Of a DNA stretch of 64,000 nt, positions 2,226 to 64,000 are shown piece after piece; position 1 is the first letter of the stretch, and the number at the start of each line of letters is the position of its first letter. The notes under the pieces were generated by a model. The model had not been told where the DNA came from. It searched no databases and saw only the letters and a list, made by a program, of their open reading frames with translations. Made by a program: the position numbers and the translations under genes. The stretch comes from Vigna angularis (taxonomy: Eukaryota > Streptophyta > Magnoliopsida > Fabales > Fabaceae), in NCBI RefSeq assembly GCF_016808095.1, contig NC_068978.1, positions 23,304,806 through 23,368,805 of the forward strand, read 5' to 3'.

Positions 2226-5200
2226 TTACTTACAAAAGAGATATGGATATTCCTTTATCATAAATTCTTCCAATTCCCAAGTCATTTCCTGTGTGTCTTC
2301 ATTCCAAAGTACTTTTACTGTGCGAATATCTTTCCCTCTTAGCTTTTTCATTTGAACATCTAGTATACGCACTGGTCCAACTTCCATTGTTAAATTTTCC
2401 TTGACCTGAATTTCATCAACTTCTAACACATGCTTTGGATCTGGAATATACTTCCTCAGTTGGGATACATGAAAAACGTTATGCAAATTTGCCAATCCAG
2501 GTGGTAATGCTACCTCATAAGCCACTGGCCCAATCTTTTTGAGAATCTGATATGGTCCGAGAAATTTTGGTGTCAGTTTCCTCATCTTGATAGCTCTCCC
2601 GACTCCTGTAGTTGGTGTTACTCGTAAGAATACATGATCTCCTTCTTCAAATTCTAACGGTCTTCTTCTTTTGTCGGCATATGACTTTTGTCTACTTTGA
2701 GTTGCTTTCATCCGATCTTGGATTAATTTTATTTTTTCTGTGGTTCGCTGTAATAGCTCGGGTCCCACTGTTAGTGCTTCCCCATCTTGAAACCAACACA
2801 ACGGGGTTCTACATCTTCTTCCATATAAAGCTTCATATGGTGGCATACCAATACTGGAATGATAACTGTTGTTGTAAGTAAATTCTACTAATGGTAGTAT
2901 CTCATTCCAACTTCCAAGATGATCTAATACACAAGTTCTTAGCAAATCCTCCAAAGACTGAATAGTCCTTTCTGTTTGACCATCAGTCTGAGGGTGATAA
3001 GCCGAACTCATCCTCAACTGCGTTCCTAGAGCCTTCTGTAGCGTCTGCCAAAACCTTGAAGTAAACCTTGGATCTCTGTCTGACACAATGCTTGTAGGTA
3101 TTCCATGAAACCTCACTACTTCCCTGATGTATAACTCCGTCAGCTTTTCTAGAGACATACGTTGATTAATGGGCAAAAAGTGAGCGCTCTTGGTTAGTCT
3201 ATCAACGATAACCCAGATAGAATCGTGACCTTTTGATGATTTTGGTAAATGTGTTACAAAGTCCATCGAGATACTGTCCCACTTCCATTGAGGAATGTCT
3301 AACTGTCTTAACATCCCTCCCGGTTTTTGATGCTCCACTTTTGCCTTCTGACACACCAAGCAGGCTGCTACAAACTCGGCCACATCCCTCTTCATTCCAT
3401 TCCACCAAAATGACTCTTTCAGGTCTTTATACATCTTAGTCATACCTGGATGTATGCTAAGACGACTTTTATGGCCTTCGTCTAAAATTAAATGTTTTAA
3501 TTCACTCTTTGCAGGTATACACACTCTGTTCTTAAATCGAAGGATGCCATCTTTACTTAGAACGAAGTCCTTAACTTGATCGGTGTCCAACAACCTGATC
3601 TTTTGCTGCAACTCTTGATCCATCGACTGCTCAACCTTTACTTGTTCTAAGAAGTCACTAGTGATTACTAAATGACCACACCATATATGATCTGGGGTTA
3701 ACTGCAACCCCAAGTTCATATCACGTAACTTTTCTAACAGTTCTAATTCCTTCACCATCATTGTTGTTATCTGAGCTTGTCTCCTACTCAATGCATCTGC
3801 CACCACATTGGCTTTTCCTGGGTGATATAAAAGCTCGAAATCATAGTCCTTCATATATTCCATCCATCTTCTTTGTCGCATGTTCAGCTCCTTTTGATCG
3901 AACAAATACTTTAGACTCTTATGGTCACTAAAAACTTGGAAACTTGCCCCATAGAGGTAGTGTCTCCATGTCTTTAATGCAAATACTACTGCTGCAAGTT
4001 CTATGTCATGCGTTGGGTAGTTCTTCTCATGGGCCTTTAGCTGCCTAGATGCATAAGCTACAGGTCTCCTTCCTTGCATTAGGACGCACCCCAATCCTTG
4101 ATATGACGCATCGCAGTACACCTCAAAAGATTTGCTAGAGTCTGGAATGATTAATACTGGTGCTGACGTTAGTCGTTGCTTCATATCCTCAAAACTGGAT
4201 TCGCACTTGTCAGTCCACAGAAATGGTTGATCTTTCCGAGTTAACTGAGTTAGAGGACCTACAATCTTGGAAAACCCTTCAACAAAACGTCGGTAATAAC
4301 CGGCTAATCCTACAAAACTTCGTACTTCAGTTACAGTTTTCGGCCGCTCCCACTTTAGCACAGCTTCCACCTTTGCTGGATCCACTGAGATTCCTTGAGC
4401 AGAAATCACATGACCCAAAAATTGTACTTTCTCTATCCAGAACTCACACTTTGACAGTTTCCCATACAGTTGATGTTTTCTTAAAATTTCCAACGCCACC
4501 CTCAAGTGTTCTGCATGCTTTTCCTTATTCTCTGAATAGATAAGAATATCGTCTATAAATACTACCACGAACTTATCTAAACATGACCGAAATATTCTGT
4601 TCATGTAGTCCATAAAAATCGCTGGAGCATTCGTCACGCCAAACGACATTACCACATACTCAAAGTGTCCGTAGCGAGATCTGAAAGCCGTCTTTTGCAC
4701 ATCTTCCGTCTTGACCAGAATCTGATGGTACCCAGATCTGAGATCAATTTTTGAAAACACCTCTGCTCCTCTCAACTGATCTAATAGATCATCGATTCTT
4801 GGCAAAGGATATTTGTTCTTTATTGTGACCTTGTTCAGCTGTCGATAATCCACGCACAACCTTGAACTTCCATCCTTCTTCTTCACCAGCAATACAGGAG
4901 CTCCCCATGGAGACACACTTGGACGGATAAACTTCTTCTCCAGCAGATCTTCGATTTGCTTTTTCAACTCTACTAGTTCGGCAGGAGCCATTCTGTATGG
5001 AGCCATAGAAACTGGGCCAGCTCCAGGCATTAGATCTATTGTGAAATCGATCTCTCGACTAGGTGGTAAACCTGGTACTTCTTCTGGAAAAACATCAACA
5101 TATTCTTCTACCACAGGTATTCCGATGATTTGTTCTTCAGTATTCTCTCTTTTCTCCTGAGCTAACACCACAAAGCAGGTAGCTCCATCTTTGATATCCT

Positions 5201-6464
5201 TCGCAACGACTCGAGTTGAGCTTAGTTCTAAATCGTTCAAATTTAGAAACTCTATCTTTTGTTTCCCACAGTCAATAAGAACGTGATTGGCAGTCAACCA
5301 ATCCATTCCCAAAATAATGTCTAGATTTTGAAGGGGTAAGCAGATCAAGTTCACTTTGAACTTGCGTCCTGCAATTTGGATCGGGCATCCGACACAGACT
5401 GAACTGGTCGTAACTGGTCCCGATGCTGGTGTAGAAACTACTAATTCACACCCTAGATCAAGCATCGGTAATCCGAGTCTCTCTAAACATGCTAAGGATA
5501 TAAAGGAGTGTGTGGCTCCAGAGTCAAACAAAACATATACGCATTCTCCTAACAACATACAGGTGTGTAAGATTAATGTACCTGGCTTAGTAGCCTCTTC
5601 TGCAGACATTGCGAATACTCTCCCTGTTGCCCGGGGCTTTACTTCAGCAGAATCTTGTTGTTGTGGTTCTCCCACCTTCTTTTTCTTTGGACAAACATTA
5701 GCAAAGTGTCCCGGATCATTGCAGATGAAGCATCTCTTCCCTTCAACTTTTTCTCCAATAAGTTTAGGGCAGTCACGTCTGAAATGTGCCCCTCCACACT
5801 CAAAACACTTCATTGTTCCTCGATATGATAATTGTGGTTTTTCATAAGGTTTTTTGTTGAATTTCATTGAAGATTCTCCCTTGGCAAGTCTGGAAACTCT
5901 ACTTGGATCAAACTCCAATAATTCTATCATTCTGGCTTTCTCTACCAATGCTGGAAACTCTTGTATTTCCAATGGCATAAGTACCTTCTTCAGTTCATGC
6001 CTTAGTCCTCCCTCGAATTTTCGACATCTCCATTCTTCTGTGATATTCTGAGTATAAAACCTCGAGAGATAATTAAATTTTACTACGTACTCTTGTACTG
6101 ATAACCTCCTTTGTTGTAAGGTCAAGAACTCCGCCTCCCTTGCAAATTTTGCACTGTTTGGAAAATATTTTTCCAAGAACCTTATCTTAAAGTTCTCCCA
6201 ATTCACAGCCTCACCACGAACCGTCATCAACTGTTGCATACTTTCCCACCAATATTCAGCCTCCCCCACCAAAAGAAATGATGCATAAGTTAATTTTTGT
6301 TCTTCTGAGCAAGTTATTACCCGAAAAATCTTCTCGTTCTGCCTTAGCCAAGAGTCAGCCTCATCCGGAGTAGCCTCCCCATTAAATTTAGTTGGATCAT
6401 GCCTTAAGAAGTCATTCAAGCTAGAATGATTTTGAGGTACTGGATCAACTTGTTGTTGCTGCAT
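2226..6464 (-). CDS. Gag-Pol polyprotein of a Ty3/gypsy chromovirus (element A)
   Basis: This is a single uninterrupted 1,412-residue frame encoding the capsid and replication proteins of a Tekay/Del-like chromovirus. Residues ~60-165 form the retrotransposon gag core. Two zinc knuckles of CX2CX4HX4C type lie at ~220-258. The aspartic protease motif DSGATHSF is at ~314. Reverse transcriptase covers ~490-665 with the catalytic FIDD motif. RNase H follows with FEVYCDAS. Integrase has its HHCC zinc finger, then the DDE core, at ~1000-1250. A chromodomain-like tail ending near [12 protein letters not shown] closes the protein, and in this family it directs integration. The ATG at 6464 lies about 150 bp downstream of the primer-binding site, as expected. 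With no stop or frameshift the protein could be functional, but the 5' LTR is truncated, so expression from this copy is doubtful. Clade assignment is from motif memory. Confidence 0.95.
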
Positions 6465-7174: not shown

Positions 7175-9934
7175 TGTAACATCCAAATATTTTAAAGGGT
7201 ATTACTGATAGTAGAGACTAAATTAATTCGATATCTCATATAAACGATCAAACTTTATTTCAATTACTCCAAAGTACAATACCAAACTTACAAACTTTAA
7301 ACAATATAGTCTTCACCGTTGACATTTCAACTTTTAAATTTTACACAACATAATCTTCCCAATACAAATTTATTCTTTTTACAAAAATCCATGAAAGGTT
7401 TTCCCCGCATCTCTCTCATCTCTAAGCTTTTTCAACCACATCTGCAACATTCTCTAATCACATATAACATGAGTTATATGATCATAGCATAAACAAATAA
7501 GGGTAAGCCAACCATATCAAATCAATCATTAAACTTGTAATAATAATAGTTTAATCATTTATTTCTACAATTACTCAAATATCATTACCCCGATGTCATT
7601 AATTCATCATTATCAAAATCATCTTCCTCAATTTCATAAACCTTACAATTTATACTATGCTTACTCACGAAGCCTTATGGTCAGACCGCTCTCTGCCTGC
7701 TTCCTTAAGCCTCACCTGTACACTATGTCTTACTCTCTGAAGCCTTATGGTCAGACCGCTCTCTGCCTTCTTCTATAAAGCTTATGATCCAGATATTTAT
7801 GTCAAAGCCTTATGGTCAGACCACTTGCTGCCTGCTTTCATTAACCTCAGGTGTTACTTTGTTCATACCAAGCTCTCATGGTATAACCGAACATACTACT
7901 TCCCGTAGGGAACATTATTTCATAAGCAATAATTTCTTATATCCATTCCAACATTTCATCACCTCAACATTTCATACTCTCTTATCCACTCCAACATTTC
8001 ATCAAATCAACAATTCATAACCTCTTCTCCACATAACTCAATCATGTTTATTCTCTAATCATAATTTGACAATAACCTATGTTGGTATTAATAAATTAAA
8101 CATATCGCCGGATATCATACTTCATATTATAAACTCATTTTTGACCATAACGAGTATAACTCAACATATTTTCACCAATTAAAGATTCATAGATCAGCCA
8201 AAACATTTCATCATATCTTAGCCACTACGTATTAAAATCTGAACTCAATGTAACGATAGATAAAATATATATGAAGTTTTTACCATGATAAATTTATGCA
8301 TCTCGAATTAACTTATTTTATTTTAATTTCATCCTATTAGAGATTTTTCTTTACCCCAATTGGTCACCGGAGAGGACCCAGATGTCTGAACGCATCAAAC
8401 TCACCTTCGACGCCAACACATATGACTAGTTACAACTGACTGGACCAGGCCAGGGCTGCTCTATGATCAGGGATGTGCCAACTCAGGTTTTTAAGGTTCC
8501 TCTATCCTACCAACAAAGGGAGGCCTTCAATAATTAACAATTTATTTATTTAAATTATCTACCTTGTTCGCTTATGCTCTAAATCTAAAATGCCTAATTT
8601 TTAATATTTTTACTTCGTCTTACAACAACCTCAAATAGTATCACTACATCTATTTAATACTCATATACAAGTTATTACAGAATCCTTACTCCAGACCTTC
8701 CAACAAGATCAATTTCAGCCAAGAAACTCATTCATGATAGAATTCATACAAGATAATTATAAACAATTAACAATAATAAAGTATTACTATAAATGATCAT
8801 ATAAGAATACAATATTTGACAATCATAAAAATAATCTTAATATAAAAATTCATGGGGAAACAAGAAGTTGAATCTGGCAGAGCCGGTTAGACAACCTCTA
8901 ATCCATCCAAAAGTACAATATAATTAAATAACAAGAATAATAACATATATGGGGAAATAAGAAGTTGAATCTGGCAGAGCCGGTTAGACAACTTCTAATC
9001 CTTCCAAAAATGCAATAAAATAAATAAGTAAAGCAATAAATAGTTTGGGGAAACAAGAAATTGAATCTGGCAGAACCGGTTAGACAATTTCTAATCCTTC
9101 CAAAATACAATAAAATAAATAAAGAAAAACAATAAAATGTTTGGGGAAACAAGAAATTGAATCTGGCAGAGCCGGTTAGACAATTTCTAATCCTTCCAAA
9201 ATACAATAAAAACAAATAAGGAAAACAATAAAATGTTTGGGGAAACAAGAAATTGAATCTGGCAGAGCCGGTTAGACAATTTCTAATCCTTCCAAAATAT
9301 AAAAATAAACCATTTAATAGCATACATATGGCATAACATAATCAACATCACATTTTACAACTATCACACTTGGATCTAAACACAGAAGCATATTCTCATC
9401 CAAAATTCAAAATCATACAGAAACAAAATACTTCACATTCAAGATTTAAGATCAACAAAAGTAACATATACAAGACTCAAAATAATACCAAACAAAAATG
9501 TAACTCCCCTTACCTCTATTCCAGACTTAGTTTCCTCTTCTCAAACCGTTCTCCAGAAACTTCCAGAATTTCCCCTCTTCAACTATAATTTACTCCAACT
9601 CTCTTCTCTCACAATTTCTCTAGAATTTTGGTGTAAATTTCCAGCCTCCCCCCCTTGGCTATTTATAGTAAAAAAATTACTATTCATTTTTACTATTCAT
9701 TTTTACTATTCATTTTTTTATTCATTTTACTATTACAAAAAAATAATTTTTTATTTGCAAATTGGTTAATTCTGATCTCAAAGCTACGTGTAACACTTAT
9801 CCTTTCCAAAAATATTTTTTTTTTTTTTTTACTATTCACTTTTTTTTTTACTATTCACCTTTTACTATTCACAATTTACTATTCATTTTTTTTTTCTAGT
9901 ATTTAACTTACAAATATTTTTCAAGGATCTTACA
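7175..9934 (-). mobile_element. Solo LTR of element A family with 5-bp target duplication CCCTT
   Basis: The LTR runs from TGTAAC to CTTACA, 2,760 bp. It is bounded by CCCTT at 7170-7174 and CCCTT at 9935-9939. A complete LTR with matching 5-bp flanks and no interior is the classic product of recombination between the two LTRs of one insertion. It is almost identical to the 3' LTR at 1-2156, so both derive from a recently active family. Confidence 0.85.
7670..7840. repeat. Short tandem repeats in the solo LTR
   Basis: The motif AGCCTTATGGTCAGACC followed by CTGCCT-CTTC occurs three times, near 7671, 7741 and 7806, with spacing of about 65-70 bp. The third copy is also present at the left edge of the window (~29-60). 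Confidence 0.8.
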
Positions 9935-35010: not shown

Positions 35011-35196
35011 CGAGTTAACCGGTGACGTGGTAACTATAGGACTTATGAGTTTGAGGGAGGCTGTCTTTGCTGTAATTAGAGAGCGTGTTCCTGGTCATTG
35101 CTCATGTGTGGATTGAACGTGACCGAGTGGTTGAATTTGATGGACCAAAAGGAGGCGAAGCCAAATGGCAAAAAGCTGGAACAAGTGAGGCCGAAC

Positions 35197-35980
35197 GTGA
35201 GGATACGTATGACCGAGCGGTAGAGGCCGAGTGGCATGCGAGGCCGATCATGAGGACGCTCTTTGACAATTGAATGTTGAGCGTTGAGGCCGAACGACTG
35301 ACTGAGTGGACGCTCGCTGACAATTGAATGTCGAGCGTTGAAGCCGAACGACTAACTGAGTGGACGTTCGTTGATAATCGAAAGTCGAGCGTTGAGGCCG
35401 AACGACTGACTGAGTGGACGCTCGCTGACAATTGAATGTCGAGCGTTGAAGCCGAACGACTGACTGAGTGGACGTTCGTTGATAATCGAATGTCGAGCGT
35501 TGAGGCCGAACGACTGACTGAGTGGACGCTCGCTGACAATTGAATGTCGAGCGTTGAAGCCGAACGTGAGGATACGTATGACCGAGCGGTAGAGGCCGAG
35601 TGGCATGCGAGGCCGATCATGAGGACGCTCTTTGACAATTGAATGTTGAGCGTTGAGGCCGAACGACTGACTGAGTGGACGTTCGTTGATAATCGAATGT
35701 CGAGCGTTGAGGCCGAACGACTGACTGAGTGGACGTTCGTTGATAATCGAATGTCGAGCGTTGAAGCCGAACGACTGACTGAGTGGACGCTCGTTGACAA
35801 TCGAATGTCGAGCGTTGAGGCCGAACGACTGACCGAGTGGACGCTCGTTGACAATTGAATGTCGAGCGTTGAAGCCGAACGACTGACTGAGTGGACGCTC
35901 GTTGACAATTGAATGTCGAGCGTTGAAGCCGAACGACTGACTGAGTGGACGCTCGTTGACAATTGAATGTCGAGCGTTGA
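35197..35980. repeat. 54-bp tandem array with higher-order structure
   Basis: Units start with GCGTTGA(G/A)GCCGAACGA at 35281, 35335, 35389, 35443 and 35497, then at 35650, 35704, 35758, 35812, 35866 and 35920. The two blocks are separated by an 84-bp segment (35566-35649) that also precedes the first block (35197-35280), giving a 369-bp higher-order repeat. As 54 is a multiple of three, the array is open in several frames. On the minus strand it encodes an 18-residue repeat (SASTLDIQLSTSVHSVSR type) within a 315-codon frame (36049-35102). I do not claim that protein is made. Confidence 0.9.
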
Positions 35981-36004
35981 GATCAAATGACGAACACCTT
36001 CGAT

Positions 36005-36235
36005 GTTGAACGACAGATTCTTTGAAAGTAGATGTTCTTGGGCGAACATAAGCTAGGCTATGGGGATGGTCCCCTAAGTTTGATTGTTTGGGTGTTCTGG
36101 GGCGAACATCTACCAGCGGGAGTGTGTCCCTTTGTTCGATGCACCTGGGTGTTCTAGGGCGAACATCGGCCAGCGGGAGTGTATCCCTTTATGCACGTGG
36201 GTGTTCTTGGGCGAACATCTGCTGGGTTTAGAAGT
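36005..36235. repeat. ~70-bp tandem repeat with GGTGTTCTxGGGCGAACAT
   Basis: Three units starting GGGTGTTCT lie near 36091, 36148 and 36200, with a diverged fourth near 36025. Each carries GGGCGAACAT, followed in most by CAGCGGGAGTGTxTCCCTTT. Confidence 0.8.
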
Positions 36236-49950: not shown

Positions 49951-52506
49951 CTTTGTTTTTAATGGTTTTTCTAATCTAAAGGGTTAGAAGCTTCATTCTT
50001 AGACAAGTCCCAGGTAAGAGAAGTGAGTCATAAAGAATGCTTAAGTATCAAATCTTGTCTTGCCATAAATGTCTTAGGTTACTAACTATTTACCCCTTAA
50101 ACTAAAATTACTTTTAAAATAAAAGGAAAAGACTCAAACACAAACAATAAAAAAACTTTCAGAGTTTAATGACCCCTAAATGTGAAATACAAGAATCAAA
50201 GGCAAAAAATATCAAATTCTACTACTATGGTGAGGCTTGTAGCTTTGGCTAACAAGACACACTCACCGTCTACTATTAATGCAAGCAAAGAAAATTGCCA
50301 AGATTGGAGAGCACCAAGGACTCTTCCAAACACTTGGTCTTAATGGCCTTTTACAAGAAAAACAAATGAAAACTAAAATGGAAACATATTACAAATTTAG
50401 AATTCCAAGATGATCAAGCTACACTACTCTACTGCTCCATATGTTCACTGCTTTGAACTTGTCCAGCCGCCTCCTTGCTTGTTTTGATCATTCAACTCTT
50501 ATACAATGGTGTTTCAATCTTGTAGACCAAAACTAAAGCAAGAAAACCAAAATGCAGGTTGAAATCAAGTTGAAACCAAACTGTTTGATATTTTCCTGAA
50601 ACTGTTTGATGAAATGCACCAAAGAGAATCAGCTTTTGTGTTTTTGGGTTTTGATTGGGCTACATAGTTCAGAATCCCTTTTAACCCTTTGTTTTGCTTC
50701 TTTTAACCATTTAATCTTATTTTAAATCACTCAACCAGGTATTGCTGCAACCCAAATTGAATTTTAAAGATAAAATCATCAAAACAGATTCAGTTTTCAA
50801 CATTGCACCAAAACAAATTGACTTAATATTGGTGGTTTGAAACTCAACTTTGTACAGAAGTGGCTTAAACTCGAAATGAATCACTTCAGCAACTTTAATT
50901 AATGATTTTAAACGTGTTCAAACTCTGAAATGAGTTAAAAACAGATTGTTACTCAAATTCACCTTGCCACTTCCTAATTTAACTCAAAATGTGATGGTTT
51001 AAGAAATAACTCTGAACTTAGGCCAAGATATTACTAATTGAAATATGCTAGCAACTTTTAAACACCATTTTAAACTTGTTCAAGCTATCAAATAGCTTAG
51101 AAATAGCATAAATCAAAATCTGACCTTGTTATGACCAGTTTATGTAGAAAAATACCCCATCAATCCTCGAAAATCAAGTTTGATTGATTCAAAAGCTATA
51201 ACAACAATGAAAATGACTCAAGGAAGTCTTAATGCACTAGATCAAGCTGGAAATTATCAGCTAAAATGAATTAAATTCATATTAGACATCCAAGGATTTT
51301 TAAGCACGGTGAAAAGCTTGAAATAAGACCAAAACAGTAGGTGTTTTCAGTTTTTGAGGCAACCAAGCTATGCTAGATGCATTTCATTGCTTGTTATGGT
51401 TTACCACACCTTTTCACCTTTTCACCTTCAATCAACACTAAATAGTGGTGAAAATTACACCAAAATAGATTGTTTAGAGAATAAACCAGCATAATTTACT
51501 TTGAACTAGTATAACAACAACACTATTAAAAATAACACATAAAAACTTTGAATAATGGGTTAGGCTTTGCTTAATTCATCATCGGCTAGACTTAGTGTCT
51601 CACTGCCTTGATTTGGTGATAATTTGCACTTAGGCATTGCATTAACTTCATCATAAACTGATTTAAAGCAGATTAGAGTAAAACTGGACAGATTTGGAAA
51701 ACTGAATCAATTTTAAGAATGCACTAGACTTTGACAGATTGAAATTAAAATCTAAAAGCATAATTCACTCTACAACCAAATTTCACCGATTAAAATGTGT
51801 AGAAAAACAAGAACACAGATAATATTCAATGAAACAGTGATGCACGAAAGAAATGTGATGGACGAACGCCCGAGGGAATGACGATAGAAGCTGTGCGAGC
51901 ACGATTTGAACTCCCCGAGCCTTCCTCGACGAGTAAAGACGCAGCGGAATGGAATAGAAGTTAGAGATCGAAGGGAAAACTGAGGTTGAACATATGGAAC
52001 CCTAGAATTTACGATTTAATCTGTGGAAACCTGAGAGGCACGAATGAAACCCTAGGAGTGGGAATAGACTCGATTTGGACCGATTAAACGGTGATAAATG
52101 GAGATTGAATGCTGGAAAAGGTTTTGATCGGAGCAAAGAAGGGTTTAATTGGTGGAAATGGAAAACAAATGGTGAGAATGGCAGGAAAAGACAAAATGAT
52201 GAAGAAACCCTAGGTTTAGATGTGGTCAGGAGATGCGGAAAGAGAAAATGCAAATCTGAGAAGAAAATGTGAGTGTAGAAGCTTACTGTGATGAAAGCAG
52301 AAGGCTCGCGAGGATGAGCTCTCGAGAGATAAATGGACGCGAGACGTCGTGGCAGTGAAATGAAGAAGGTCTGGCGAGGCTTTGCGCGAGAGAAAGGAGG
52401 ACGCGTGGCTAAGGAGCGCTGACGCCACTGAAGCGGATTGAAGTAATGGTGATGATGTGTGATGAGAGAGAAGCACGGTGGAATGGAAAATGAAAGTGAG
52501 AGAGGT
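49951..52506 (-). other. Leader/LTR-like sequence upstream of the gag fragment
   Basis: No coding domain is seen. 50000-51830 is A/T-rich with repeated CAAACTGTTTGAT-type words. 51840-52500 is GC-richer and on the minus strand reads like a transcribed leader (CT-rich, with AAACCCTAG words). I take it as the LTR and 5' leader of the degraded gypsy element, into which element C inserted at 52506, but no LTR boundaries can be proved. Confidence 0.4.
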
Positions 52507-54926
52507 TGATACGACTGTCGCGGTCATACAAATTTGATTGCAATTAAGTAATGCAGTATAGTGTAGGATGTGACTCCTAGGTCGTCTCTCAAGGACCAAT
52601 TTGGGTTCAGTCTCAGATTTTTATAAGTGACTCCTAGGTCGTCTCACAAGGACCAATATTTGTGGTTCGGTCTCAGATTTAACACGTAATGGGGGTTTGT
52701 TTGTGATTTTTTTTTTTGTTTTGTGGAAAATAAAATTAAAACTGGAATTTAAACGAGACAGAATTTAAAACACTGAAATAAATTTTAAACACGGTGAAAA
52801 CTGCACGGTATAATACGGTAAAAATAGAAAACATCTGAAAATAAAACGAACCGTAAAACGCAATTACAAAATTTAACAGTGCAAAAAATCATTAACGGTA
52901 AATTTAACAGATAAAAACATTTAACTGGAAATGGAATAAAAACAATAAAAAAAATGTTTGACTGAAAATGAAATTCAACATTCAACATTAAAAATTTTGA
53001 ACCGTAGAAGTGAAAATGAAATAAGCAATGCTTCAGAAATAAAAACTACATTTTTGGACTATTTGAAATGGAAACTCAGCGAGAGAATTGAAAGACTGTC
53101 CTAAACTACTCCTAAAACTCTACTAAAATCTGATAATCTGCTCTGCTATGCTGCTGCCAATTTATAACCACTTCCCTCCTCTTTCACGTGTGTACACCAC
53201 TTCCAATAATATTTCACTTTCTTGGTCTCTAAGTGGAACTTCTTCCAGCCGTCCACCATGCACCACTTAATAATAACAAATCATGGGCCCTCATGCACAC
53301 CAACTCAAGTCCGTGAAGCTGCTGCCTCTTCCAACAAGCCGTGACACCACATCTTTGCTCCAGCTCCCTTTCGAACTTCCTTCTTCATTCTCTAAGCTAG
53401 AATGAAACTTCTCTGCTGCCATTTCTCCAACCGTGACACTCTTCTCCTTCCCTTTTCTTCTCCCTTGAACGTGAACTGCTTCCCGGACATGGTAGCTGCT
53501 GCACCACTTCTTCTCTTTGGTGATGGTTCCTGCTGGACAGGAATTTCCTTCTCAGCTGTTACTGGTGACGTAGTTTGCTGGATGCATGGAGGACCGAGAG
53601 CTCTCCAAGCTTCTGTGCTGGACCGTGAGCTGCAGCGTGAAGGTCTTCTTCAAAGTTGTTGGATGCTGCACCTTCTTCCTGCAACGTGAGCTTCTACTGC
53701 TATAGATAGTTACGTTGGGAAGATTGGAGATGTTGAATGTGGCTTCTCCCATTTCTGGTGCAGACCGTGTGTTCCAATGTTTTGTGCTTCCAACAAAAAT
53801 TAATCCATGCAACATCTTCTCTTTGGAACGTGTGGTATGGGTTGCAAGGAAGAAAACTAATTCCCTGAACTAGAAAAACCATGGGCCAAAAGAGCCTTCC
53901 CTTTTGAATATGTGAAAACCATGTGCTTGACTTGAAACGTGGATGTTGATTGTAAAAGAAAGTAAATTCATTTCTTCTCTTGCTTTTCTGAACCAGCTGT
54001 ACCTCCATCACCATGCAGCACCTTGCTTCTTTCTTCCAGCCAGCTGTGAACTGCTGCCTCTGCTGGACCAGTTGCTTCTTGTTCATGCCGTGACAGTGGC
54101 TGCAGCTCTTCATGTGGCAGCCGTGTGCTTCACTAGATGCTCCAACACTTTGCATGCGTGTTGCTACTGCTGGTTGTCATCCTTGTGCTGGCCTTCCAAT
54201 AATGAATGAATGAGGGGTTCTTCCACTTTTCTCACATAAGGAAAAATTGACCCCATTTCCAGTCAAAGAAAACAAAATTCTCCATAATGGTGGCTCCCAC
54301 TTTAAATTCCAACTTTGCTGATTGCTTTTCCAAATTGACTTCTTCATGGGCCCTAGGCCATATGCTTTTAGTTTGGTAGCAATTATAGCAAACTCTTCAA
54401 TGAAGAATGTTAATTTAGCAAAACCATGAGGGTCCCTTCATTTTATTCTTCAGTGAATTCAACTTTAACATCCGTGACAAGGCACATGTTAACGTGAGTT
54501 TGCTACACAAGTGTGATCCTTATTTTAATTTTCATTCAACAGTAATGCTTGCTGCAACAAAGATGAATGGCTGTGTGATGTTGTATGTTGTTCCAAATCA
54601 TCATGCTTCTTCGTGAAATGAGCTCCAAATTGTGCCAATATTCCACTTCAACACTAAAATAAATCAGTGGAACTAGCTTCTCCCAGTTAAATAGCACCGT
54701 GTACAAATGCATGCTCTTCTAAATGTCCTAAAATGTAATCCAAAATATTCTTGCAATCATTAATGAAAATAATAAGCTCAGATAATTCAAATTAATTAAA
54801 ATAAGAATTTCTGATCAAATTATACACAATTAACGAAAATGGAATAATATCGAACATTTAAGCACAATTCCCTGATTAATTCTAGTACAATAAACTAAGT
54901 GAAGTGAAGAAAATATTGACTCATCA
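52507..54926 (-). mobile_element. 3' LTR of element C (Tat/Athila-type gypsy), 2,420 bp
   Basis: TGATACGACTG to GACTCATCA. Positions 52507-54296 match the 5' LTR at 60635-62423 with about eight substitutions and small T-tract length changes in ~1,790 bp, so the insertion is fairly young. The short frames repeated in both LTRs (for example 53402-53689 and 61529-61816) are LTR sequence, not genes. Confidence 0.9.
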
Positions 54927-56475: not shown

Positions 56476-56524
56476 CACTGTGACAACAGTTTCGGTGGCT
56501 ATGACCGAAACTGTTGCTACAGTG
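56476..56524. promoter_or_regulatory. 49-bp palindrome in the homeobox gene promoter
   Basis: The centre is AACAGTTTCGGT, a 7-bp spacer (GGCTATG), and ACCGAAACTGTT: perfect 12-bp arms. After 3 unmatched bases on each side, CACTGT and ACAGTG extend the pairing. It ends 13 bp upstream of the TATA box. It is a plausible site for a dimeric transcription factor, or a hairpin. Just upstream (56391-56433) the near-repeats CATCAGTAGATGT and CATCAATAGATGT also occur. Confidence 0.75.
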
Positions 56525-56537
56525 AAAAAACATTTGG

Positions 56538-56548
56538 CTATAAAAGGG
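56538..56548 (+). promoter_or_regulatory. TATA box of the antisense homeobox gene
   Basis: CTATAAAAGGG is a strong plant TATA box on the plus strand, opposite to the retroelement's transcription. About 30 bp downstream is a long CT-rich stretch (56581-56635), common in plant 5' UTRs. Confidence 0.7.
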
Positions 56549-56567
56549 CCACTCCTCCGCGTCGAGC

Positions 56568-56724
56568 AACATTTCTGATACCTCACTCTCTCTCTACTCC
56601 TCTCTTCTCTCTTCTCTCTCTGCTCTCTTCTCGAGCGTCTGGATCTGCGAGGAAGCTCTGCCACCGTGCCATCTGAAGAGTCCGAGATCCGCGAGGAGCT
56701 CCTCTGCCAACCCTACTTCCCCGG
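56568..56724 (+). other. Predicted 5'-UTR exon 1 of the homeobox gene
   Basis: It starts ~30 bp after the TATA box and ends at the donor CCCCGG|GTAAGT (56725). No ATG lies in it. The following intron (56725-57452) is pyrimidine-rich and ends TTTATGTTTAAG. The start position is approximate. Confidence 0.55.
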
Positions 56725-57466
56725 GTAAGTCCTCTACACTCTCAGATCTCCCTTTCCTTTTACTATTTTTTTTTCTTTTCCTGCCTTCTCTCCTTCCCGT
56801 TCCATCTTTCCTTACCTGCTCCCTCTCTTTTTTTTTTTTTTTTTTTGCGCTTTCTCTGCCTTTCTCTCCCTTTCTGTATTTCCTTTATTTTTCATCTCTG
56901 CCCTGCTCTCTTTATTTTTCTCTGCTTGTTCTCTTTCCTTCTCCCTTGTCCTGCTTTCCTTTATTTTATTTATTTTTTTTTATGCTATTCATTTTTTTTA
57001 TATACCTGACCTCTCTCCCTGCCCCCTGTTTATGCTTTCCTGCCCTTACTATTATTTTTGTATTGTTTATTATTATTTTTTATATTCGGCTTTTCCAGTT
57101 TTCTGCTTATTATTACGCACACTAAAAACAACTAAAAAAAAAATCAGACTAAAAACAAAAAGAATGGACAAAACACAGACCTAGATCCGTTAGGACCCTT
57201 TGCGAGGACCTGGAGCTAAACATGGACAAAACTGATGGACCTAAAACTGGAAAATGGACAAACCTGAGACAAGACACAGAAACATCAAAGACTGACAGGA
57301 AAAAATAAATTTAACGGGAAACAAGAACAAATAAAGAAAACACAGAACTAATCTAATTATATTTTTAAGCTCTTTTTTTTTTTCTGTTTTGTTCTTCTGT
57401 TTTTGTTCTTTTTTTTATTTTTTATTTTTATTTATTTTTTTTTATGTTTAAGAATATTAGAGAGGA

Positions 57467-58011
57467 ATGATGAGTGAGATGGAAATCGAGAGATACACGA
57501 GTCAGCGGTAGCGTCCAACAGATGATCAGGTCAAGATGATGACCAACATCTTCAACTACGGGGTTACCCATCCAAGCAGAGCGCAAGTCGTCGAGATCAC
57601 GTCTCGACTAAGGACCTTCGGAGATGCCAGCGAATACAACGTGCACTGCTGGTTCAACAACCACGGCAATCGGGTCAGGCGCTGGCAAGCAGAGATGGAC
57701 CCCACTGGCACTCTCTTTTCACAACTGCCGCTATATATGTACGGTAAGACCTCTGATCAAATCTCACTTTTATTGAAATTTTTTTTTTCAATTATTATTA
57801 ACAAGATTTTTTTTTTTGTTTGTTGAAAGAATATGGCTGGGTGGTAATGAGGGCACCAAGGCTGCTGGATTTGTTCCCAGTCCCGATCATCATCGACGAC
57901 GACAGAGATGAACGACAAATCCCTCCGCCTAGGCCTCTTACATTCTGCACCAGAGCTCCCTCGACGGAGCTTACCCTAAGATCTCCACCCAGCAACACCT
58001 TTCCATTTTAA
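57467..58011 (+). CDS. WUSCHEL-related (WOX-type) homeodomain gene carried antisense inside element C; in-frame stop
   Basis: Exons 57467-57743 and 57830-58011 join in phase 1 over a GT-AG intron (ACG|GTAAGA, GAAAG|AA), giving 152 codons. Codons ~11-76 match the long WUS-type homeodomain: TSQR then RPTDDQ, ITSRLRTFG, and recognition helix NVHCWFNNHGNR. Trp62, Phe63 and Asn65 correspond to the homeodomain's Trp48, Phe49 and Asn51. Exon 3 holds LLDLFP (104-109), like the WUS-box core, and an acidic run (IIIDDDRDE). It ends with TELTLRSPP (138-146), resembling the EAR-like repressor tail. Known WOX proteins are nuclear regulators of stem-cell fate. Codon 15 is TAG (57509-57511), where the family has its conserved Trp. 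The ATG pair at 57536 would give 129 residues lacking the start of helix 1. The gene is antisense to gag, between gag and the 3' LTR. Whether it is expressed is unknown. Confidence 0.75.
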
Positions 58012-58260
58012 TGCTTTATGTTTTTTTTTATTTATTATGTTTTTGTTGGCCGAGTGTGGCCAGAATAAGGTCTGTAATATGAACATTTATTTTTTTATGT
58101 TTTTTTTTTTCTTTTTTTTTATTTGGCTTGTAATATTAACGATCAGAAATGATCGACCCCCGGACAACTTTAATTTCATATATATCTACTGCAATTTCAA
58201 TTTCAGATCTGTTCAATTTCCATTCACCAATACTGTAATTTTGCTTTTATGAATGATATC
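58012..58260 (+). other. Probable 3' UTR of the homeobox gene
   Basis: T-rich sequence after the stop, with AATAAGG near 58064 and AATATTAAC near 58131 as weak polyadenylation-type signals. The end of the transcript cannot be set. Confidence 0.4.
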
Positions 58261-58669: not shown

Positions 58670-60106
58670 TCAGGGTGGCAGTTGCCAATTTTGGATTTGT
58701 AGGGAGATGTTCTTCTCTTCAGGATCCAGCATGAAATTGTTGAGGACGAACTGCTTCATCCTCCAAATCTGATCAAGCAGGTAAATATCCTCCACCGCCG
58801 GATCTAAGCAGCAAATATTGTTTCTGAGCAGATTCAGTAGGTGCCTTTTGATCTTCAAACTGCTGTATGTACTGGCACCTTTGTCTTCCAGCGTGGGTGC
58901 ATGCTGATCAAATTTATATGTACCTCCTGCAATATGGTTAGTGCAAAATGGTTCCACAGAAATATCATGCAGAGGTATAACACCCAATCCCAATTCATCA
59001 TACTGAGCCTTAGATACAACCTCATAACATGAATCCGTTTCAAATGTAGAAACAATATCTATAACAGGTTCAGATTCATGTTGAGTGCATGGAGAACAAA
59101 TATTTGGATCTGATAACACAAAATTATTCTCATCATGCATAGAGGGAAAATTAAAATCATGCTCAGCAACAATATAATTATCAACATACCTCTCAATAGC
59201 ATAATCATCAAAGCAATCAAATTGAGGTATGTTGGTGGAAAATGAAAGTGGTCTACCTGGTTCGAAATAGCTGCTTGTATCTGCCTGATCCTCAAAATAT
59301 TCAGCATTCTCCTCAGGTGCAAGAGTGGCCATCTGCCCGATCTGATCATTCGAACTCTCAATGATAGCTTGTGTCTTTTGTTGCAGCTCCATGATTTCTC
59401 GCTTAAACTGAATGCTCTGCATGGTTCTCTGCTCCAATAACTCCTTCATTGCAGGTTCAGAAGTAGAAGGCTGAGGAGCTATTTGAGTAGGAGCATCATA
59501 CTGCTGACTCTCGTATTGCGGGATTGGCGGAGGGATAAAAGTATCCTGAGATGGTGCTTCCTGATATTTCTGTGGAGCATCGTACCATCCCAAACTCGTG
59601 TCATTCCATCCAGGATTGTTGTTGTAACCATACTGCACAAGGGAGAAGTTGCTCAGAAATTGATGCTCAAGATATCCCCAATTGGTAACGGATCCTAGAG
59701 GAAGAGAGTTTTTCCAATCCTTAGCTGCTCCTTGTAATGAATGCGGAAATGCTTTCAAGAAAATGTGATCATTTGGAACATTTGGAGGTTTCATAAAACA
59801 GCAAATTTCATAGAAGTTCTCCAAATGCGTATGTGGGCATTCATTCGCAAGTCCACGAAAATGGGGCAGCAAATTTATCAGTTCAGTGGTGAGGACTAAA
59901 TGATCACCATCCTCAGTAAGTGGTATCGGCTCCCAAAGGGAGCTCTGAGAAGTTTGAGGATGAGACATATTGTTCTCATCATAGAAATCAGCATAATAAT
60001 AATCATTGTACCAAGCAGTAGCAGAATCATAATTAGAAAAATTGGCAGAATAAGCAGTATTCACATAGCCAGAATAGGTAGACATGGAAAAATAAAAATA
60101 AAACAA
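58670..60106 (-). CDS. Gag-like protein of element C (Tat/Athila type)
   Basis: The 478-residue open frame has a second, more likely start at residue 8 (60085). Residues ~76-154 are a typical Athila/Tat gag core: INLLPHFRGL, then CPHTHLENFYEICCFM, LKAFPHSLQGAAKDW and WGYLEHQFLSNF. In full-length relatives the gag continues with a long second half. Here it jumps at ~155 to a Tyr/Asn/Gln-rich segment (NNNPGW, QYESQQYDAP), a short coiled coil (~215-255, MKELLEQ to IIESSND) and an acidic tail. No zinc knuckle and no protease follows. It could still package element RNA. Gag would be translated from the element's genomic RNA started in the 5' LTR. The gag-only layout fits a TR-GAG-type non-autonomous element. 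Confidence 0.8.
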   Translation of the reverse strand: MFYFYFSMSTYSGYVNTAYSANFSNYDSATAWYNDYYYADFYDENNMSHPQTSQSSLWEPIPLTEDGDHLVLTTELINLLPHFRGLANECPHTHLENFYEICCFMKPPNVPNDHIFLKAFPHSLQGAAKDWKNSLPLGSVTNWGYLEHQFLSNFSLVQYGYNNNPGWNDTSLGWYDAPQKYQEAPSQDTFIPPPIPQYESQQYDAPTQIAPQPSTSEPAMKELLEQRTMQSIQFKREIMELQQKTQAIIESSNDQIGQMATLAPEENAEYFEDQADTSSYFEPGRPLSFSTNIPQFDCFDDYAIERYVDNYIVAEHDFNFPSMHDENNFVLSDPNICSPCTQHESEPVIDIVSTFETDSCYEVVSKAQYDELGLGVIPLHDISVEPFCTNHIAGGTYKFDQHAPTLEDKGASTYSSLKIKRHLLNLLRNNICCLDPAVEDIYLLDQIWRMKQFVLNNFMLDPEEKNISLQIQNWQLPP

Positions 60107-60610
60107 ATAAAAACTAAATACTAAAAATTACAAAAGAAATAAATCACAACACATTTATACATGTTACACGCACACAAAAGACAGAACATAATAAATTTTT
60201 TTTTTAAATTTTTTTATTTAACAGATAAAGCACATGCAACACACATACAGAACATCACATCACAACACAAAATAAAACACAACACAATTAAACATGCTTC
60301 AGACACAAACAAGACAGAACAAAATTAAAAACTTTTTTTTTTTAAGATTTTTTTTTATTAAATAATTTTTTAATTAACAGATATAATACAAAACACAACA
60401 CAATAAAAATATAAAATACTAAACATATATTACAACCACGTAATAAAACAAAAACAGTAAAAATCTAAAACAAGAACCTGGACTGAAGTGACAACGCCGC
60501 CAAAATTTGCTGAAGGTGTCGTTGTCGCCTACAAGAATACAAAACACAAAACACACATATTAACAAAACAAAAATTTACACAACAAGAATCTAAAACCAA
60601 ACCGTCATTG
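60107..60610 (-). other. Element C leader between primer site and gag
   Basis: A-rich on the plus strand, with repeated ACACAA/ACAGA words. No short upstream frame or domain is recognised. Confidence 0.5.
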
Positions 60611-60629
60611 GTCCCCGGCAGCGGCGCCA
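60611..60629 (-). other. Primer-binding site of element C
   Basis: TGGCGCCGCTGCCGGGGAC on the minus strand lies five bases from the 5' LTR. This GGCGCC-GCCGGGGA type of site is characteristic of Tat/Ogre/Athila-group gypsy elements. Confidence 0.85.
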
Positions 60630-60634
60630 AAATT

Positions 60635-62423
60635 TGATACGACTGTCGCGGTCATACAAATTTGATTGCAATTAAGTAATGCAGTATAGTGTAGGATGTG
60701 ACTCCTAGGTCGTCTCTCAAGGACCAATTTGGGTTCAGTCTCAGATTTTTATAAGTGACTCCTAGGTCGTCTCACAAGGACCAATATTTCTGGTTCGGTC
60801 TCAGATTTAACACGTAATGGGGGTTTGTTTGTGATTTTTTTTTTGTTTTGTGGAAAATAAAATTAAAACTGGAATTTAAACGAGACAGAATTTAAAACAC
60901 TGAAATAAATTTTAAACACGGTGAAAACTGCACGGTATAATACGGTAAAAATATAAAACATCTGAAAATAAAACGAACCGTAAAACGCAATTACAAAATT
61001 TAACAGTGCAAAAAATCATTAACGGTAAATTTAACAGATAAAAACATTTAACTGGAAATGGAATAAAAACAATAAAAAAAATGTTTGACTGAAAATGAAA
61101 TTCAACATTCAACATTAAAAATTCTGAACCGTAGAAGTGAAAATGAAATAAGCAATGCTTCAGAAATAAAAACTACATTTTTGGACTATTTGAAATGGAA
61201 ACTCAGCGAGAGAATTGAAAGACTGTCCTAAACTACTCCTAAAACTCTACTAAAATCTGATAATCTGCTATGCTATGCTGCTGCCAATTTATAACCACTT
61301 CCCTCCTCTTTCACGTGTGTACACCACTTCCAATAATATTTCACTTTCTTGGTCTCTAAGTGGAACTTCTTCCAGCCGTCCACCATGCACCACTTAATAA
61401 TAACAAATCATGGGCCCTCATGCACACCAACTCAAGTCCGTGAAGCTGCTGCCTCTTCCAACAAGCCGTGACACCACATCTTTGCTCCAGCTCCCTTTCG
61501 AACTTCCTTCTTCATTCTCTAAGCTAGAATGAAACTTCTCTGCTGCCATTTCTCCAACCGTGACACTCTTCTCCTTCCCTTTTCTTCTCCCTTGAACGTG
61601 AACTGCTTCCCGGACATGGTAGCTGCTGCACCACTTCTTCTCTTTGGTGATGGTTCCTGCTGGACAGGAATTTCCTTCTCAGCTGTTACTGGTGACGTAG
61701 TTTGCTGGATGCATGGAGGACCGAGAGCTCTCCAAGCTTCTGTGCTGGACCGTGAGCTGCAGCGTGAAGGTCTTCTTCAAAGTTGTTGGATGCTTCACCT
61801 TCTTCCTGCAACGTGAGCTTCTACTGCTATAGATAGTTACGTTGGGAAGATTGGAGATGTTGAATGTGGCTTCTCCCATTTCTGGTGCAGACCGTGTGTT
61901 CCAATGTTTTGTGCTTCCAACAAAAATTAATCCATGCAACATCTTCTCTTTGGAACGTGTGGTATGGGTTGCAAGGAAGAAAACTAATTCCCTGAACTAG
62001 AAAAACCATGGGCCAAAAGAGCCTTCCCTTTTGAATATGTGAAAACCATGTGCTTGACTTGAAACGTGGATGTTGATTGTAAAAGAAAGTAAATTCATTT
62101 CTTCTCTTGCTTTTCTGAACCAGCTGTACCTCCATCACCATGCAGCACCTTGCTTCTTTCTTCCAGCCAGCCGTGAACTGCTGCCTCTGCTGGACCAGTT
62201 GCTTCTTGTTCATGCCGTGACAGTGGCTGCAGCTCTTCATGTGGCAGCCGTGTGCTTCACTAGATGCTCCAACACTTTGCATGCGTGTTGCTACTGCTGG
62301 TTGTCACCCTTGTGCTGGCCTTCCAATAATGAATGAATGAGGGGTTCTTCCACTTTTCTCACATAAGGAAAAATTGACCCCATTTCCAGTCAAAGAAAAC
62401 AAAATTCTCCATAATGGTGGCTC
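60635..62423 (-). mobile_element. 5' LTR of element C, interrupted after 1,789 bp
   Basis: It aligns with 52507-54296 of the 3' LTR up to GGTGGCTC. At 62424 the sequence changes to the start of another LTR. The missing outer 630 bp (counterpart of 54297-54926) should lie beyond the nested element, outside the window. Confidence 0.9.
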
Positions 62424-64000
62424 TGATGAGTCTATATTTTCTTCACTTCACTTAGTTTATTGTACTAGAATTAATCAGGGAATTGTGCTTAAATGTCCAG
62501 TATTTTCCCATATTTACTATTTGTGCTTAATTTGATCAAAAATTCTAATTTTAATTAATTTGAATTATTTGAGATAATTAATTGCATTATTGCAGGGAAA
62601 ATTTTGAAATTATAAATTGAGACATTTGGAAACATTTTTTCTTGAAGAAGCTATCTCTTAAAATTTGTAATGTAATACTCCTCTGGAAACCATATACACA
62701 CGTACATTTGTTTGATTGGGAGAAGCATATTTAATTGTTCTATGGCCAATTTGATGACCCATTCCACGTGGAAGGAGTAGAATTTACGGTTCTTACAAGA
62801 GAAAGAATGTTGGAAAATCATTTGATTCTTATTGCCAAAATATTTTAATTGTGGGCGTGACTTATTGCAGGAGAAAGAAGGAATAATCAATTTTCACCCA
62901 ACACATCACACTGACCCATCTTTCTTTTGGTGAAAGGCATTTGGAATAAAACAAAAGAGGTGGCCACCACTTTTTGGCAACAACATTGGAAAGAAGAAAT
63001 GAATTTAGTTTCTTCATACTGCACTCCAAGGTCAGCATCCACTCCATTCTACAATAACAATCTTGGAGACACGGGACCACGCTCATGGAAAGGAACTACC
63101 ACGGCTTTGGTCACGGTTCTCCTTCATGCAAATTAATTTTCTTTCCACAAGTGCACACAGCAAGCTACAAGCAGAAGCTTTGAAGACATCAACGCATGGT
63201 GTAGCAATTAGAGGGAAGTGTCTCGGCTGGGAGTTGGATGCAGCAGCCACCATGAAGGAAGTCTCACGGCCTGGTCCAGCGTTGGAAATGGAAGAGCTCA
63301 TTGGAAGCCAAGGTAGCTCTCGGTCCAGTTTCACCATACCAGCAGAGGTGCACGGTGAAGATAGGGGAGCTGCACTTAAAGGGAATCCACCTCCTTGATG
63401 AAGAGAAAGCTAACGGCTAGCAGGAAGTACAGGATGCTGGCACGGCCTGGATGGTGTCACGGTACATGGCAGCAGCTGGAAGAAATGGAAGCATGGATGG
63501 CTGTCCAAGGACCTTCACGGACCAGCACCATCTTCACGTTCCAGATTGAGAAATATACAAGTCCAGCACATGGGTTTGGCTTCAAGGAGACCTCTTAGTC
63601 TTCATCTTCCAACACCTTCACGCAACACTTGAAGAAGACGGTCCAGCTGAAGAAATAAACCTTCACTAGGGGAAGATGAGGTGGTATTCTCTGTCCAGCA
63701 CCTTGTTGAAGCAACCACCTGCAGCGTGAATGAAGTTGGTAGTAAAGGACAGCAGCATTCAAACATAAACAAGCTGATATGTCACGGCTGGAATAAAAGA
63801 GCAGCCAGCTTTTATGAAGAGACCAACACGTTGAGCTGGGAATGGCAGTGCATGGTGGCTGCTGGAATTGAAGAAAAGAAAGCAGAAGGAGCAGCATCTC
63901 ACGGCCAACCTCCACATCCAACAGCAGCTGAATAGAGCCCGTGAATCATTTGTTTATTTGGTATGGGGTGTTTTGTTTTGTCTGCACGTACGAAATGGGG
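62424..64000 (+). mobile_element. Start of a related LTR in opposite orientation, nested in element C (partial)
   Basis: TGATGAGTCTATATTTTC opens the sequence, and the first ~80 bp are close to the reverse complement of 54845-54926, the transcriptional start end of element C's LTR. Further on the two diverge but share a composition of CACGGC/GTCACGG and CAGCGTGAA words. It therefore looks like the 5' part of a sister-family LTR on the plus strand, inserted into element C's LTR. Its end and interior are outside the window. Confidence 0.7.

Follow-up and report, generated by a model that had tools for sequence, protein, structure and literature searches.

A gene of the WUSCHEL/WUSCHEL-related homeobox (WUS/WOX) type is carried antisense by a long terminal repeat (LTR) retrotransposon of Vigna angularis, in a 64,000-nucleotide stretch of contig NC_068978.1 (positions 23,304,806 to 23,368,805 of the forward strand; the whole stretch is called the window below, and positions without a locus label are counted from its first nucleotide). 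The gene lies on the plus strand between gag and the 3' LTR of a minus-strand element, and genes of the same kind were found in many other elements of this genome. We propose, from comparisons of sequence, that the captured WUS-clade gene is probably an accessory transcriptional regulator of non-autonomous retrotransposons that are devoid of pol.

The putative gene begins with a predicted 5' untranslated region (UTR) exon at 56570-56724, read from the sequence and with an approximate start, which ends at the donor GGGTAAGT (56724/56725) and is preceded by a TATA box at 56539-56545. A coding exon with a WUS-type homeodomain (about 57512-57688) follows at 57467-57743, and the last coding exon, at 57830-58011, contains a WUS-box-like LLDLFP (57862-57879) and an EAR-like STELTLR (57961-57981). 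The 2 coding exons join in frame (GT at 57744, AG at 57829), and the joined frame is continuous apart from a single premature in-frame stop at 57509-57511, where the homeodomain starts. Just upstream of the TATA box the sequence reads as an inverted repeat, ACAGTTTCGG...CCGAAACTGT (56486-56514, plus strand), both arms of which are unchanged in a second copy of the element nested in the first (L009, described later); this repeat could be the binding site of a dimeric regulator.

The Pfam Homeodomain profile matched the piece of the product after the stop at 22.7 bits (E 8.9e-5), just short of the curated cut-off of 22.9, which is 0.2 bits above, and it scored above the cut-off for relatives elsewhere in the genome. 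The nearest solved structures by sequence were STENOFOLIA (4e-8) and WUSCHEL (6.4e-8), and both again came first in a structural comparison with the fold predicted for P0003, an intact relative (26-row alignment; mean pLDDT 66.6, with 85-95 by ten-residue blocks over residues 11-70). In published definitions the WUS-box is TLXLFP and the EAR-like motif SLELRLN, both being repression domains (PMC10342170). The LLDLFP of family A, as we call the family to which the window copy belongs, is a one-residue variant of the WUS-box, and exact TLDLFP was present in 12 of 20 loci of family C, which is introduced below; a tail of the E-L-[ST]-L-R type, which resembles SLELRLN and is not identical to it, was present in 59 of 84 relatives. 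The recognition helix departs from the cellular WUS form, reading WFNNHGNR or WFQN[HY]G[NY]R as against WFQNHKAR. By what we take to be the homeodomain numbering of this helix, Asn51 and Arg55 are kept and positions 50 (in family A), 53 and 54 differ from WUS; because of this alteration, the targets of the protein probably differ from those of cellular WUS. In the aggregate, the product shares the homeodomain fold, the WUS-box and the C-terminal EAR-like motif with WUSCHEL and other modern-clade WOX proteins (WUS, WOX5, STENOFOLIA), and differs from them in its size of about 150 amino acids, its recognition helix and its presence in many retrotransposon copies.

The carrying element, read in its own sense, consists of a primer binding site, gag, the antisense gene and the 3' LTR, in that order. 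The primer site, which we take to be of the tRNA-Asp type, is at 60607-60629 (minus strand). The gag open reading frame occupies 58670-60085 (minus strand; Retrotrans_gag 19.9 bits, E 8.6e-4, under the 24.1 cut-off) and is the sole sense gene seen between the LTRs. We did not find pol in this element, which had no minus-strand frame of at least 100 codons outside the LTR and gag, and gypsy pol from elsewhere in the window gave no match within it. The 3' LTR (2,420 bp, TG...CA) occupies 52507-54926 and the proximal part of the 5' LTR 60635-62423, both on the minus strand, the latter being broken at 62423 by the nested family-A element. Over 1,791 aligned bases the LTR pair has 99.55% identity; at 1.3e-8 substitutions per site and year this would place the insertion at roughly 0.2 million years ago. 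A primer site of the tRNA-Asp type, which the window element shares with 8 of 10 further copies, is in keeping with the broad Ogre/Tat/Athila group; for this non-chromovirus group PMC6317226, in its available text, gives a non-Met tRNA primer such as tRNA-Asp as the rule.

A search of the 448-Mb genome with the gene DNA, in which 40 copies were scored of 505 first-look candidates, returned the window copy and 39 others at 87-93% identity over at least 527 of the 553 query bases; the 40 scored copies together cover all 11 large contigs. The 10 best other copies were sliced 2.6-3.7 kb downstream. The primer site and the LTR start were present in 8 of these and homology to gag or the 5' UTR in 9; the slice for L053 was without the LTR start, and L052 had none of the primer site, LTR or gag/5' UTR homology. 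Among database proteins, 57 of 62 candidates were relatives of the window product at E<=1e-3, in clusters all named Vigna angularis, and a precomputed Homeodomain (PF00046) was present in 45 of the 57. Profile searches added proteins from Vigna radiata and Vigna umbellata, plus one cellular-WOX-like protein from Rehmannia. The initial annotation had described a spliced plus-strand WUS/WOX gene that lay antisense between gag and the 3' LTR, was carried by the element and was possibly multicopy. Its identification of the homeodomain agrees with the profile search (marginally so for the broken copy) and with the structural comparisons and database relatives, and its placement and multicopy spread were borne out, the gene being found in other element copies and not at this locus only. 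The predicted splicing is plausible, in that the coding exons join in frame, but the window copy itself is interrupted.

Further families carry related genes. Twenty loci picked by size and homeodomain score all belonged to one further family, C, which comprises a main group, C1, and a group C2; families B and C' are known from short pieces (600 bases for C'). The proteins of families B and C keep the homeodomain, the WUS-box and the EAR-like tail. The C1 genes reside in a different LTR element, whose primer site is exact to TGGTATCAGAGC in 7 of 9 cases and is presumably of the tRNA-Met type. In 8 of the 20 C loci the gene is flanked by LTR sequence to its left and right within the fetched stretch, and the C gene is antisense too, judged by the side of the primer site. 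The window LTR, left internal region, gene DNA and gag/UTR had no blastn match in 4 C1 elements; the window promoter block matched all 4 at 75-80%. This block, which contains the TATA box, is common to A, C1 and C2, and in the promoter alignment of these families (7 usable rows, L016 being left out) TATAAA was present in 5 rows and the GTAAGT donor in 6, as well as in the nested copy L009.

The genes of family B and most of family C are in the tRNA-Met-primed backbone, and those of 2 of the 3 C2 loci are in the gag-bearing one. Thus the B copy L060 has the C1 backbone with an exact Met site, and L061 shares that backbone in part, while the C2 copies L018 and L022 follow the window backbone along the LTR, promoter and gag, with a gene that matches C1. 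It follows from these pairings that gene and backbone have been re-paired. Since non-chromovirus gypsy elements do not use tRNA-Met priming, according to the available text of PMC6317226, the 2 backbones represent different lineages. The simplest account, although we infer the mechanism, is that a promoter-plus-gene cassette was swapped between co-packaged elements. A separate observation in this material is a tandem array with a 25-base step at L010:1359-2491, upstream of the gene, which matches part of the C1 LTR.

We compared substitutions in the coding sequence to look at constraint on the protein. Between C1 and C2 the homeodomain exon has differences at 6.5-8.2% of its nonsynonymous sites and at about 79% of its synonymous ones (medians, at most 98 codons), and the amino acids are 77-91% identical (median 85; 51 pairs). 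That the amino acids are so alike while synonymous sites are near saturation indicates purifying selection. The ratio of nonsynonymous to synonymous differences per site (pN/pS) was 0.16 within A (15 pairs), 0.12 within B (one pair), 0.16 within C1 and 0.05 within C2; L011, in which the pattern used gave no homeodomain, was left out of this set, and since the loci are not independent these statistics carry no formal P value. By these comparisons the protein has been important to how well the elements, or a parent gene, fared. Codon avoidance, as an escape from homology-dependent silencing, was considered on account of the synonymous differences (pS) near 1 in the C1-C2 homeodomain and was rejected: upon codon shuffling within amino acids, the observed differences were below the shuffled mean in 6 of 6 C1-C2 pairs, clearly so in 4, and in the absence of any excess the synonymous sites are taken to be near, and not fully at, saturation.

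To place these genes we used the Rehmannia WOX-like protein in a further search of the genome, which gave 150 scored rows of 613 candidates. Seventeen rows were cellular WOX by sequence (11 modern-clade, 6 WOX8/9/11/12-like), and 128 were called element-type from identity and length. The 31 of these 128 that were read all agreed with the call by sequence, and stops occurred inside the match in 14 of the 128. The other 5 rows were 3 HD-ZIP III-like by score and 2 partial modern-like exons. No cellular parent of the A, B or C type was seen among the 17 cellular WOX and the 31 element-type rows that were read. In 2 homeodomain trees of 64-65 columns, which between them included 15 of the 17 cellular WOX loci, the element genes formed one group within WOX (90/96 and 85/97), separate from the cellular loci, and in the first tree element genes and WOX together were grouped against 2 other homeodomains (HD-ZIP by reading) at 100/100. 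For the second tree ten rows of the first set, including one WOX8/9-like locus, were left out or renamed, and a further WOX8/9-like locus, L037, is in neither tree. L074 (C1:29673640-29673890), which had been considered as a host WOX, was rejected as such, being element-type by sequence and falling inside the element group of the tree; its divergent homeodomain, CWKPTKEQLSIL...WFQNYGYRERQR, is possibly that of another element family. The combination of WUS-box and EAR-like motif points to an origin of the element genes on the WUS/WOX5 side. In the available part of a table for cotton, only WUS and WOX5 carry both motifs (PMC10342170).

These observations are consistent with the following scheme. 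A WUS-clade WOX gene would have been taken up by LTR retrotransposons in the Vigna lineage, most likely in a single event, and its present form is an antisense cassette complete in itself, with promoter, 5' UTR exon, homeodomain exon and WUS-box/EAR exon. Recombination would then have re-paired cassette and backbone, so that at least 2 LTR backbones carry it, one gag-bearing and tRNA-Asp-primed (A and two of the three C2 loci), the other tRNA-Met-primed (C1 and B). The cassette may be transcribed from its own promoter, and its product may be a small homeodomain protein that is nuclear and draws in co-repressors by means of the WUS-box and the EAR tail, as WUS does. Such a protein would act in trans as a transcriptional repressor or regulator that aids pol-less elements, on element or host genes and most likely in meristem or germ-line-precursor cells, where new insertions would be heritable. 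The initial annotation had also suggested that the element captured a developmental regulator; structure and origin speak for this, and the function is what the scheme advances as a hypothesis.

Several observations weigh against the scheme. The window copy is broken by its stop, although intact copies exist elsewhere. Words of the WUS-site type showed no convincing excess in the LTRs and internal region in 18 tests; the best word, TGAATGAA, occurred 2 times in the A LTR, where 0.28 were expected (0.027 of 300 shuffles), and 0 times in the C LTR. At the third C2 locus, L029, the window backbone is limited to the promoter and a 45-base piece. Constraint is weaker within C' (pN/pS 0.47), and between families other than C1-C2 the ratio is 0.20-0.44 with pS saturated. 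The C loci were, moreover, selected for their high homeodomain scores, a choice that pushes pN downwards, although hardly far enough to account for near-saturated synonymous sites. The trees, which have a long stem and gave long-branch warnings, do not place the element genes in any WOX subclade. Finally, annotated relatives are found only in Vigna, save the one cellular WOX, yet the near-saturation between C1 and C2 suggests great age.

Passive capture would mean that the elements carry functionless copies of host genes, that the constraint is that of cellular parents, and that A, B, C1 and C2 were captured separately. Captured genes are indeed known in plant LTR elements (PMC7264820), and divergence among A, B and C is high. 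Yet the families have their motif set in common, the promoter block and the antisense position are further common to A, C1 and C2, the element genes group together in both trees, and the census, in which the LTR context was viewed for part of the rows, revealed no candidate parent among the cellular WOX and the element-type rows read; we regard separate passive captures as unlikely. The useful product might instead be an antisense RNA or a promoter, acting through double-stranded RNA or control of the sense transcript. Antisense transcription can be regulatory (PMC7264820), and the promoter block is the only non-coding DNA of the window element that still matches C1, but such a role would not require the strong coding constraint, nor a homeodomain exon in which the window and nested copies resemble each other more closely than they do in the second intron, and it appears rather improbable to us. 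Least of all do we expect a genuine expansion of cellular WOX genes in Vigna with LTR elements nearby by chance. Databases do name several of the proteins as WOX: the public Vigna proteins P0041, P0059, P0061, P0062, P0064, P0068, P0070, P0071, P0076, P0077 and P0079, 11 in all, are called WUSCHEL-related homeobox 1, 2, 4, 5, 6, 7 or 8. By sequence, however, these 11 are members of the element families, and the collinearity of gene, gag/UTR, primer site and LTR in 8 of the 10 sampled A copies, together with the LTR sequence that flanks the gene left and right in 8 of the 20 C loci within the fetched stretch, is not what chance proximity would give.

The protein may mainly auto-regulate its own element through the LTR or internal promoter, in the manner of retroviral accessory proteins and without a role in meristem identity, as has been proposed for antisense open reading frames in PMC11963269. 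In favour of this are the recognition helix, which differs from that of cellular WUS, and the inverted repeat, which adjoins the TATA box in a promoter block kept across unrelated backbones; but neither the LTRs nor the internal region have a clear enrichment of WUS-type sites, and C-type proteins occur in both backbones although the window LTR and the C1 LTRs are without similarity. We therefore hold auto-regulation as the main role to be possible but doubtful. Equally tentative is a stronger form of our own proposal, in which a WUSCHEL mimic was captured once and its promoter-plus-gene cassette swapped between unrelated LTR lineages, where it would make or keep cells stem-cell-like, or repress host silencing in meristems, so that pol-less insertions reach the germ line; the gene would then be an oncogene-like accessory gene kept by selection on the element. 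Accessory regulation of pol-less elements by a WUS-derived protein, as first stated, is the reading that we retain.

The nested second family-A element starts at 62424 and continues on the minus strand to 64000 and past the end of the window; its own gene copy, at L009:5961-6470, is at the same place in the element. It sits in the right LTR of the outer element, and 5-bp duplications bound both insertions, GGCTC for the nested element and GAGGT for the outer one (left copy at 52502-52506, right copy beyond the window, in L062). Sequence conservation between the 2 copies covers the promoter block, the donor and the coding exons, and their gag sequences are 72% identical. The gene region of the nested copy (L009:5778-6533) is 82% identical to window 57258-58044, while the three longest other blocks are 87-96% identical; the extra divergence, which is mainly in the introns and last exon, suggests mosaic recombination within the element. 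The left end of the nested element looks like the end of an LTR in reverse orientation, and the insertion may therefore be composite. Elsewhere in the window we observed an uninterrupted gypsy gag-pol frame of 1,412 codons at 2226-6464 (minus strand), flanked by two 141-codon frames (1121-1546 and 8898-9323) with the same sequence as each other; this appears to be a young, unrelated element, the 141-codon frames presumably lying within its LTRs. A 315-codon frame at 35102-36049 (minus strand), with repeats of the STLDIQLSTSVHSVSRSA type, is probably a tandem-repeat array rather than a gene.

Multicopy antisense genes that, as here, lie in the interval from the coding region to the 3' LTR have been described as aORF-3R in maize Grande (gene23), rice RIRE2, Silene Retand and Phaseolus PvRetro13 (PMC7264820, PMC11963269). 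Grande gene23 is stated to have its own promoter (PMC7264820); the Vigna gene has a conserved promoter-like block and a TATA box that may correspond to one. The systems differ in that the window element is without a pol that we could find and in the protein encoded, since the Retand frames carry TRP28, a domain of unknown origin (PMC11963269), whereas here the protein is recognisable as a transcription factor of the WUS type, by its homeodomain, WUS-box-like motif and EAR-like tail; a Pfam scan of the pieces of the two coding exons gave Homeodomain only, and no TRP28 (PF04195). Gypsy elements with captured domains (an AlkB m6A demethylase in Phalaenopsis, LOG-type (YgdH) and B3 domains elsewhere; PMC9289625) likewise have a host-type regulatory domain fixed in an LTR lineage, but the window element has its gene in antisense orientation, and we found no pol in it. 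The 121-genome screen for extra domains in that study chose elements by reverse transcriptase and would for that reason miss pol-less elements; its main text, as far as available, names no homeodomain. The LOG-type domains of Citrus elements (PMC9289625) are an intriguing parallel, the LOG gene also being tied to the stem-cell niche. Among the top-ranked literature matches, no paper described an LTR element that carries a homeodomain or a WOX gene.

Because proteins named WOX belong by sequence to element families, WOX counts in Vigna may be inflated, and element genes may explain the WOX expansion reported in Vigna reflexo-pilosa (PMC10357499). According to the available texts of PMC7264820 and PMC11963269, what the antisense accessory genes of plant LTR retrotransposons do is undetermined. 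In the present case both the family from which the protein descends and its biochemistry (homeodomain, WUS-box, EAR) are known, which makes the role of such an antisense gene directly testable. Mobile DNA appears in these Vigna elements to have taken over a developmental control gene and, if this is true, transposon spread would be tied to the plant stem-cell niche, the source of heritable insertions.
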